From positions 372,001 to 436,000 of the forward strand of contig JASCOE010000002.1 of NCBI GenBank assembly GCA_029959285.1: a stretch of 64,000 nucleotides of DNA, in the 5' to 3' direction. Numbering within the stretch: position 1 is the stretch's first letter; each line of letters opens with the position of its first letter. Both the position numbers and the translations under genes were made by a program. Positions 7,410 through 8,941 of this stretch are shown here, piece after piece. The stretch is from Flavobacteriaceae bacterium PS02337 (GTDB lineage: Bacteria > Bacteroidota > Bacteroidia > Flavobacteriales > Flavobacteriaceae). The notes beneath the pieces were generated by a model. The model searched no databases, was not told the origin of the DNA, and worked only from the letters and a program-made list of their open reading frames with translations.

Positions 7410-7484
7410 AGCTTATTCATTTGTAAAGGCTAAGTTAGTTTCTTTTTTAATGAAATGAAAAATAATTTTAGCGCAAAAAGGATT

Positions 7485-7586
7485 ATTACAAAATATCGTA
7501 ATAGTCAAAATAATTACCAAAAAGTGTAATTTTTAATATTATTACCTAAAAACGTAATAATTAAAAATATTACTTATATTTGTAAT
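7485..7586. promoter_or_regulatory. array of four ATTAC-N8-GTAAT operators, 28-bp period
   Basis: Four dyads with identical arms and 8-bp spacers lie at 7485-7502, 7513-7530, 7541-7558 and 7569-7586. Their starts are exactly 28 bp apart. The spacers differ in sequence, so only the arms and the spacing are conserved, as expected of binding sites rather than a copied repeat. The last copy covers the -7 box of satD. The array lies between the divergent HMG-CoA lyase and satD genes and could control either or both. Confidence 0.85.
7575..7582 (+). promoter_or_regulatory. -7 box TATATTTG of satD
   Basis: A full TAnnTTTG match 37 bp before the satD ATG. It lies inside the fourth ATTAC-N8-GTAAT dyad, so a protein bound there would block transcription. 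Confidence 0.7.
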
Positions 7587-7619
7587 ACAAAGTTTATTAT
7601 TTTTTAATTATATTTGATT

Positions 7620-8234
7620 ATGACTAGTGTAATTACAGGCGACATTATTGGGTCAAGACAGCAGCAATCAGAGCATTGGGTTGAAGATTTAAAAAAAATC
7701 TTGACTCCATTTGGTCAGACGCCAAGTCAATGGGAAATTTATCGCGGAGATGAATTTCAGATTGAAGTTCCCAATCCTGAAGATGCTTTGTTAGTAGCAA
7801 TTTTAGTAAAAGCACGTTTGCGAGCCATAAAATCTGACGCACGAATGAGTATTGGTTATGGAGATAAAACCCATAATGCCGAAAGAATTTCTGAAAGTAA
7901 TGGTACAGCTTTTATCAATTCTGGAGAATTGTTTGAAACTTTAAAAAAGCAAAAAGTCACATTAGCTTTGCGAACAGGCGATTCAAATTTTGATGAAAAA
8001 TTAAATTTAATGATTCAGCTTGCATTGACTTTTATGGACAGCTGGCTGGTACAATCGGCAGAATTTGTCGCGCTGGCAATAGAAAATCCTACTTTATCTC
8101 AAGAAGAATTAGGGCAAAAATTAGGCATCAATCAAGCTGCTGTGAGTCGAAGACAGAAACGTGCTCAGTTTGATTTGGTAATGCAATTAGACAAATATTT
8201 TAGAACCCAAATAAAACAACTCTCAGCATTATGA
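7620..8234 (+). CDS. SatD family protein with C-terminal helix-turn-helix
   Basis: 204 residues. It starts at ATG 7620 with MTSVITGDIIGSRQQQ, the diagnostic opening of the SatD family; a TTG 6 bp upstream is less likely. The C-terminal 45 residues (TLSQEELGQKLGINQAAVSRR) read as a helix-turn-helix, so the protein may bind DNA. SatD proteins are named from a streptococcal stress locus and their biochemistry is poorly known. The stop overlaps the ATG of the DUF3307 gene (ATGA), so the two are coupled. Upstream lies the four-copy operator array, whose last site covers the promoter. Autoregulation is an inference. Confidence 0.82.
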   Translation: MTSVITGDIIGSRQQQSEHWVEDLKKILTPFGQTPSQWEIYRGDEFQIEVPNPEDALLVAILVKARLRAIKSDARMSIGYGDKTHNAERISESNGTAFINSGELFETLKKQKVTLALRTGDSNFDEKLNLMIQLALTFMDSWLVQSAEFVALAIENPTLSQEELGQKLGINQAAVSRRQKRAQFDLVMQLDKYFRTQIKQLSAL

Positions 8235-8941
8235 TAATATTTATAAAACTGCTTTTAGCACATTTATTAGGCGATTTTATCTGGCAACCCAATTCTTGGG
8301 TAACTGATAAAGAACATAAAAAGCATAAAAGTATTTACTTATATGTTCATATTTTGCTTCACGGAGTTTTAGCTGCTGTTTTAGTCGGAGAAATTAGTTT
8401 TATTCCTTATGCCATTTTGATTGCTGTAACTCATGGAATTATTGATTTAATCAAATTGAATTTTCAGAAACCTAAAAATAAACGCACTTGGTTTGTAGTC
8501 GATCAAATTGCACATGTATTGATTTTAATTGGAGTTGCTACGCTTCTTTATCAAGATAATGGCTTCATTCATTTTTGGGTTATGAATGAATTTTGGATCT
8601 TAATAACAGGCTTTTTATTGGTTACAAAACCCGCTTCTATTTTCATTAAAACCATCATTTCAATTTGGAGTCCAGAAAGTCAAAATAGTCATCAAGACAA
8701 TTCTCTTGCCAATGCAGGAAATTACATTGGCATATTAGAACGTCTGCTTGTAGTTTGTTTTATTTTAACTGGACATTTTGAAGCAATCGGTTTTCTGCTT
8801 GCTGCAAAATCTATTTTTAGATTCGGAGATTTAAAAGAAGCCAAAGACCGAAAACTGACTGAATATGTAATGATCGGAACTTTAATTAGTTTCGGAATTT
8901 CAATACTTGTCGGTTTAGCAATTCAGGCACTTCTTTTATAA
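8231..8941 (+). CDS. DUF3307 family membrane protein
   Basis: A 236-residue integral membrane protein with about six hydrophobic segments. The N-terminal part ([18 protein letters not shown], then HILLHG and THGIIDLIK) is the DUF3307 pattern, with conserved His and Asp residues set in membrane helices. That hints at metal or proton chemistry, but its function is unknown. It is translationally coupled to satD, a pairing I recall from other genomes, so SatD probably controls or assists it. Its last 6 bp overlap the end of pyrD on the opposite strand. Confidence 0.8.

Follow-up and report, generated by a model that had tools for sequence, protein, structure and literature searches.

The window, by which we mean the whole 64,000-nucleotide stretch of DNA that was analyzed, contains four dyads at an exact 28-bp period in front of satD. 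On comparative evidence the array is a precisely kept operator system, and the core idea of an earlier note on this DNA was right. The overall explanation that the array is the operator of satD and is bound by SatD itself is very likely, judging from sequence comparisons within and beyond the phylum. SatD, a family of obscure action, thus becomes a candidate regulator with a predicted target.

An array of four dyads precedes satD

The features of the locus are listed in Table 1. A pattern scan of the 64-kb window found exact matches to ATTAC-N8-GTAAT starting at 7485, 7513, 7541 and 7569, as had been claimed for four dyads with identical arms and an exact 28-bp period. The chance expectation is 0.11 per window, and at least four dyads were seen in 0 of 100 dinucleotide shuffles. 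A fuller reading of the arms is TATTAC-N8-GTAATA, which gives dyads of 20 bp with a linker of 8. The earlier description of invariant arms and differing spacers was correct for the four copies; a freely variable spacer was not supported, as the spacer is constrained in a set of 277 dyads. The four central spacer positions were A or T except for 4 of 1108 letters, and spacer positions matched between copies of one locus in 53% of cases, compared to 35% expected from composition. By these measures the copies are not plain duplicates, yet their spacer is under constraint.

Table 1. Coordinates of the satD locus in the window.
Feature	Position	Strand	Basis
Operator dyad 1 (putative), TATTAC-N8-GTAATA type	7484..7503	.	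Pattern match; array conserved in relatives
Operator dyad 2 (putative)	7512..7531	.	Pattern match
Operator dyad 3 (putative)	7540..7559	.	Pattern match
Operator dyad 4 (putative), holds distal -7-like box	7568..7587	.	Pattern match
TATATTTG, -7-like box within dyad 4	7575..7582	+	TAnnTTTG motif, kept in relatives
Second TATATTTG, proximal to satD ATG	7609..7616	+	TAnnTTTG motif, kept in relatives
satD: palm residues 1-118, C-terminal helix-turn-helix ~144-181	7620..8234	+	Pfam SatD 30.2 bits
D8, first conserved palm aspartate	7641..7643	+	267/267; aligned to D of DI-S in Ma1120
G43-D44, second conserved aspartate (RGDEFQ)	7746..7751	+	267/267; aligned to GD of Ma1120
Recognition helix (predicted), residues 172-181 (QAAVSRRQKR)	8133..8162	+	AF2 model helix
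DUF3307 membrane protein, 4-nt overlap of its start with the satD stop	8231..8941	+	Pfam DUF3307 101.6 bits

The motif TAnnTTTG, which we take to be a -7-like promoter box of the Bacteroidota type, occurs twice before satD. The last dyad had been said to overlap the satD -7 box, and the distal copy does sit within dyad 4. All 26 loci L005-L030 have this distal box, at -42 to -49 relative to the ATG, and in 21 of them it is within an exact last dyad. Among L031-L048, it was seen only in L047 (at -54), outside any dyad of the TATTAC-type arm. Of the 44 loci L005-L048, 40 have the proximal box, at -11 to -15 (it is absent in L033, L037, L044 and L047). The conserved start of satD is the ATG at 7620 and not the TTG at 7614 that the ORF finder had picked. 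Dyad 4 ends about 33 bp before this ATG. Transcription of satD may start at or near the ATG and give a leaderless transcript.

The own genome (5.7 Mb) has 18 ATTAC-N8-GTAAT dyads and 11 matches to the backward control, which puts the single dyad near chance. A double dyad with a 28-bp step was found in the own genome only at the satD array. Such double dyads occurred in 41/150 same-genus genomes and in 0/150 for the backward control and, among the places listed, which were compared by eye, all were before satD. One double dyad (G114:C4:20-65) is at a contig end, and the satD of that genome is at another contig end.

Other targets in the own genome were considered and rejected, since the 14 further single dyads are near the backward control of 11 in number. 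The most promoter-like of them (G000:C54:100675) was unconserved, its best matches in 40 relatives being short pieces, and is probably a chance occurrence. This lone dyad (L073 1501-1518) shares 17/18 letters with dyad 4 and precedes an unrelated open frame.

The pitch of the array is conserved in relatives

By protein search, satD was located at 69 places in 68 of the 150 same-genus genomes. The best upstream array was then searched with no preset arm, spacer or period; L049 was excluded throughout, its upstream sequence being missing. The period was 28 in 59 of 67 same-genus loci, 29 in two and another value in three, and no array was found in three (L062, L027 and L032, the last two with short upstream sequence). 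Of the 59 arrays with period 28, 51 scored above all 201 shuffles (shuffle maximum 24; period 28 in one shuffle). The same search gave period 28 in 0/244 window tiles.

A lag test, which takes the best self-match at lag 15 to 60 within 260 nt upstream of satD, was also conducted (without L027, L032, L071, L155 and L179, which are too short). The strongest lag was 28 or 29 in 58/64 distinct same-genus genes, 69/78 named genes, 41/50 phylum-wide genes and 78/84 genes of a later held-out set. The controls gave 28 or 29 in 31/870 pieces of the same loci and in 1/117 AT-rich window pieces. The locus sets overlap: several genomes behind L005-L048 recur among the named loci (L125-L204). A scan upstream of orthologous satD genes had been proposed as a check, and the array was present, not absent, in the same-genus, named, phylum-wide and held-out sets.

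The distance between dyads is kept with high precision. In 87 loci with at least two exact dyads, 184 of 190 gaps were 28, with three of 56, two of 84 and one of 85, so that 189/190 are multiples of 28. The gaps of 56 or 84 indicate that lost copies keep the phase intact. The copy number ranges from 2 to 4 exact dyads and up to 6 with mismatches.

In five same-genus loci (L031, L161, L162, L163 and L165, of which L031 and L163 look like one genome) the 28-bp array was displaced, not lost. It lies about 240-500 bp before satD, which is 200-300 bp farther upstream than usual. In L031, an inverted-repeat-rich, GC-richer stretch is present between the displaced array and satD. A search out to 1500 bp upstream gave no 28/29 array in L057, L064, L101, L102, L111, L199 and L202, although L057 has two TATCG dyads at 28 near satD. 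Also, no clear array was seen before satD in L097, L113 and L117.

Shared control of the divergent HMG-CoA lyase gene had been suggested earlier. The lyase is the divergent neighbor in 110 of 190 loci (overlapping sets), which would fit an array that controls this gene too, or mainly. The 28/29-bp array is nearly as frequent in loci without the lyase (68/80) as in those with it (100/110), and the suggestion of shared control did not hold up. Since the array is present with or without this neighbor, it belongs to satD, and a role in lyase control is improbable.

The arms are rewritten at the same pitch, also on plasmids and in archaea

L047 (58% identical) and most relatives below about 55% identity have other arms at the same pitch, including TATTCC, TATCG, TATCTG, TATATG, TATAAG, TATTAG, TATGT, ATTGGC and more. 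In lineages with a new arm, every copy of an array carries that arm. A distant canonical SatD group of the phylum has many odd-length dyads (e.g. TTTCA-N7-TGAAA), with a pitch that is mostly 29.

The 28/29 geometry also precedes satD on plasmids of Proteobacteria and haloarchaea. Three haloarchaeal plasmids have a pitch of 29, with GTTCG-N10-CGAAC in two groups of two and with CAACC-N6-GGTTG. The pitch is 28 on plasmids of Vibrio, Pseudoalteromonas and Segatella, and the best lag is 28 on those of Sphingomonas parapaucimobilis, Agrobacterium and Salinivibrio, where the dyads were read by eye (the Salinivibrio array is weak). An Enterobacter plasmid has two dyads at 29. An E. coli plasmid has two dyads at 28-29 that were read by eye, with a tie between lags 28 and 29, and the L218 array is a near copy of it. 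No array was found before satD in 3 of the 15 plasmid loci (L205-L219), namely those of S. insulae, P. fragi and Fusobacterium. Two of the haloarchaeal plasmids (L205 and L206 2340-3888) were seen to carry a coupled satD-DUF3307 pair together with the GTTCG-N10-CGAAC dyads at 29 bp.

A tandem duplication or selfish repeat without a regulatory role could produce an exact period and a variable copy number. It would not be expected to leave arms intact while spacers differ between copies, to leave gaps of exactly 56 or 84 where copies are missing, or to give all copies the same new arm in other lineages. This explanation can practically be dismissed.

Arm bases covary with the predicted recognition helix of SatD

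The covariation set was made from 122 loci, which gave 35 non-redundant SatD-array pairs. Loci were left out when the array score was below 36 or the arm was unreadable (14 listed), and others when bases 4-5 were tied. The L120 arm was assigned by hand from the sequence, as the automatic register was shifted, and one fixed rule served to reorient half-sites that had been read on an alternative axis. The SatD columns that best track arm bases 4-5 were 178, 174, 170 and 186, followed by the palm columns 116 and 45; in these 35 pairs, column 175 ranks 7th and column 177 ranks 11th. The palm columns at ranks 5 and 6 count against covariation of the helix only. In pairs with 30-60% palm identity, palm identity was 0.483 for the same arm versus 0.471 for different arms. 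Helix-turn-helix identity in the same pairs was 0.52 versus 0.38, and this was reached by 0 of 2000 label shuffles.

A code for arm prediction was fixed before the data were seen and then applied to 85 held-out satD loci, which came from further genomes in the family. The predictions were right in 27 of 43 held-out cases, compared to a mean of 7.9 and a maximum of 17 in shuffles (n=5000). One held-out locus (L268), identical to the known L195, had been removed; with it the count is 28/44. By class, S-K-R predicted TATTCC in 6/6, S-Q-R predicted TAT[TA]AG in 12/15, and S-Y-S or S-T-S predicted TATATG in 4/4. The prediction of TATCG from E, A or G at residue 177 was weak (5/17), and that of TATTAC from S-R-R was right in 0/1. 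By residue 177 alone, the results were 6/10 for K, 28/39 for Q and 0/2 for R; both predictions for R177 outside the Q-A-A context failed. One training protein, L198, is the nearest relative (68-70% identical) of five of the six held-out S-K-R proteins, which may be one clade. The six S-K-R successes are therefore not six independent cases.

Ten of the 12 misses in the E/A/G177 class carry N174, and seven of those have a TATCT arm. This points to residue 174 as a second contact, a pattern that was noticed after the prediction test. Among the held-out loci L223-L283, helices of the form Q-S-N-[IV]-S-E were seen mostly with TATCTG or TATCTT, and those of the form Q-S-[ST]-[IL]-S-E with TATCG. From this pattern, arm base 5 may be read by residue 174; L229, L235 and L236 are exceptions. 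Residues 174, 177 and 178 and arm bases 4-6 would thus make up a partly readable recognition code.

On a palm-only tree, S-K-R and TATTCC each change six times, on 8 and 8 of 114 rows. On well-supported branches of this tree, the two independent S-K-R/TATTCC pairs both agree. Other traits have two or three pairs on such branches, which mostly agree or are undecided, with 0.0 to 0.2 against on average. The covariation is non-significant on well-supported branches alone, where two or three pairs per trait are too few.

Because the arms change together with its recognition helix, SatD very probably binds the array. A different regulator, with its gene elsewhere, could instead bind the array and control satD. 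The array alone names no binder, and single dyads are also present elsewhere in the genome. Such a third protein would need to change in step with the arms in every lineage, as the arms covary with the SatD helix; in addition, double dyads are only at satD among the places listed, and arrays of this kind are also on plasmids and in archaea. A regulator other than SatD is very unlikely.

SatD and its membrane partner

The Pfam family PF16264 takes its name from satD in the sat operon of Streptococcus mutans. The window protein matches it with 30.2 bits against a cut-off of 29, and the PF16264 model gave no SatD match in a whole-genome scan of the own genome (G000). It is therefore a borderline, divergent member of this family. 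D8, S12, G43 and D44 are present in 267/267 distinct aligned SatD proteins, which have the motifs GD-x3-S and GD[ES]FQ.

An AlphaFold2 model of SatD, built with 51 sequences, had a mean pLDDT of 93.5 and a pTM of 0.90, and a beta-alpha-beta-beta-alpha-beta palm fold was predicted. In a Foldseek search, 47 of the best 50 of 1143 matches were adenylyl, guanylyl or uridylyl cyclases, GGDEF-type proteins or Cas10 complexes. The palm E-values are weak, with 0/1143 reaching 0.001 and a best value of 1.5e-3; the TM to the query was about 0.4 and the probability about 1. A sequence profile matched the class III cyclase Ma1120 over residues 3-88 (E 0.009), and the alignment pairs SatD D8 and G43-D44 with the DI and GD of Ma1120. 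These aspartates bind metal in class III cyclases. The N-terminal domain is thus predicted to be a palm of the nucleotidyl-cyclase/GGDEF/Cas10 type with both metal-type aspartates kept. Because of this predicted fold and the conserved aspartates, the palm is reasonably likely to bind or make a nucleotide. The profile of residues 137-182 matched MarR-type repressors (E 0.008). A helix-turn-helix-like C-terminus had been proposed for SatD, in agreement with this weak match and with the helix at 172-181 in the model.

Coupling of SatD to DUF3307, another earlier proposal, was supported. A DUF3307 homolog directly follows satD in 67/67 same-genus, 80/80 named and 46/49 phylum loci with room for it, and was not found after satD in L084, L092 and L113. 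The most frequent arrangement, a 4-nt overlap, occurs in 48 same-genus, 73 named and 13 phylum loci. In an alignment of 189 partners, the C-terminal block is best conserved, with G167, E170, K193 and G216 in 189/189 and R171, R197 and S220 in 188/189. In some distant loci, the partner is little beyond this C-terminal part. The gene behind satD encodes only about 100-150 aa in L207 (3034-3450), L095 (downstream frame) and L215 (3102-3551). It was also observed that the best conserved block is C-terminal and not the N-terminal region that Pfam calls DUF3307 (the alignment is without L207 and L215). The partner model has ten helices at a pLDDT of 86.6, and no solved structure in the PDB matched its fold with an E-value below 1.3.

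The pair is the main cargo of a 3,770-bp E. coli plasmid and of five Klebsiella plasmids with the same length and SatD. In the E. coli plasmid record it is beside Rop and mobilization genes. On E. coli/Klebsiella plasmids of 3.8-4.4 kb (L219 1792-3481 and L218 248-1937), the pair was seen with little else, and SatD is annotated as a hypothetical protein. A search for DUF3307 in phages gave no match, and of 44 pattern matches to canonical SatD (alignment A4) in viral contigs, 0 were confirmed. The gene table of a jumbo-phage paper lists a 134-aa DUF3307 match.

A model for the control of satD

In the proposed mechanism, a SatD dimer would read each dyad through its C-terminal winged helix-turn-helix. 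The binding unit is taken to be the 20-bp dyad (Flavobacterium-type) because N10 between the 5-bp arms holds while the linker is 8 or 9. Adjacent dimers would touch across the 8-bp linker (9 bp at pitch 29) and assemble side by side on the promoter. Since the pitch survives a full change of sequence and host, contacts between SatD dimers may set the distance between dyads, and we consider such contact between neighbors quite likely from the comparative data. Cooperative assembly is inferred from the invariant spacing, in which 184/190 gaps are exactly 28. It had been pointed out that this period is not a whole number of helical turns, and by arithmetic 28 bp is 2.67 turns, or about 120 degrees per step, so that three sites cover 84 bp or eight turns. 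Successive dimers turned by this angle suggest a SatD oligomer that would wind round the DNA rather than line one face. The geometry of the array has outlasted the sequence that it carries.

The assembly over the last dyad would repress satD and the coupled membrane protein. The locus has the arrangement of an autoregulated transcription factor with tandem operators, with the putative binder encoded directly downstream and the sites over its own promoter. Repression appears most likely since a -7-like box lies under the last dyad, whose end is about 33 bp upstream of the ATG, and on this reading of the sequence autorepression rather than activation is probable.

The main rival is that SatD is an activator, with the dyads assisting RNA polymerase at the proximal box (7609). 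There are two promoter boxes, and position alone therefore gives no sign of control. Activation would suit the conserved -7-like box just before the ATG, an array that ends near the expected -33 element, and the location of most dyads upstream of both boxes. It would not suit the last dyad covering the distal box (in an exact dyad in 21 of the 26 loci L005-L030). Tandem operators over a gene's own promoter usually mean an autorepressor. An array 200-300 bp farther upstream, as in the five displaced loci, is unsuited to activation at the proximal box and speaks for an effect at the distal box. Activation is thus unlikely, if still a serious contender, and autorepression is preferred. Of the autoregulated SatD system in the earlier note, selected sites, very probably bound by SatD, are upheld by the covariation and conservation, and the repressor sign is probable.

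In the autorepression model, the N-terminal palm would sense or make a nucleotide that tunes the SatD assembly and the partner, and SatD proteins may in this way couple a cyclase-type palm to DNA binding. A bolder and rather doubtful extension is that SatD and its membrane partner are a widespread nucleotide-signaling unit. The array would template a DNA-wound oligomer whose palms are active or inactive together, and occupancy, nucleotide synthesis and restraint of the partner would be one switch.

The firm tie of SatD to one membrane partner offers an entry point to DUF3307 and to the question of why satD seems essential in some streptococci. According to an S. pyogenes pangenome paper (PMC11323703), satD is seemingly essential in all transposon-tested strains and present in 178/249 genomes. 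On the bolder reading, a gene that is essential yet accessory would fit one that holds a harmful partner in check.

Comparison with known systems

In the literature searched, a scope outside which most subscription papers fall, no SatD operator, DNA target or fold was described, and no paper linked SatD to a nucleotide cyclase and a helix-turn-helix. The same search returned nothing on DUF3307 beyond the phage gene table.

A defense role was considered from the known systems. A Panoptes-type defense system appears unlikely, as no S-2TM-beta effector is beside SatD and the window pair has no PADLOC match; the haloarchaeal and S. insulae pairs also have none, and the defense reading was set aside. 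The E. coli plasmid pair had helix-turn-helix-type matches only for SatD and none for the partner. A PADLOC scan of neighbor frames covered 91 of 165 (flanks of about 1.5 kb). Among the 25 of 59 families listed, each had at most two matches, and the families are mostly housekeeping. A few plasmid satD loci adjoin defense-type genes. The Sphingomonas insulae pair, which has no array (L213 4072-5561), is beside an annotated Pycsar effector, an E2-associated protein and an adenylate/guanylate cyclase.

The window protein has the GD-x3-S and GDEFQ motifs in common with the SatD family PF16264. With class III cyclases and GGDEF diguanylate cyclases (Ma1120, Rv1900c and PleD) it shares the predicted palm, the metal-type aspartates and the DI-S and GD-F motifs. 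In contrast to those enzymes, the SatD palm is fused to a helix-turn-helix that apparently recognizes its own operator, and any cyclase activity is putative. Mycobacteria have cyclases that are fused to other DNA-binding domains. The mCpol domain was reportedly named in a paper by Burroughs on nucleotide-centered systems. Panoptes OptS-OptE, an mCpol cyclase with a transmembrane effector, likewise pairs a small palm enzyme with a membrane protein in a two-gene operon, and the main text of the paper does not mention SatD (PMC12657218). SatD differs from Panoptes in its helix-turn-helix and operator array, and its partner is DUF3307, not S-2TM-beta.

Winged-helix MarR-type repressors resemble SatD by the weak C-terminal profile match (AdcR 3tgn, E 0.008; adhesin competence repressor 5jlu, E 0.035). 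Compared to these and to tandem-operator autorepressors, the SatD sites keep a fixed 28/29-bp pitch while they are rewritten, from bacteria to archaea. The surprising part, as sequence and model suggest, is the combination of a cyclase-type palm, a self-recognized operator array and a constant membrane partner.
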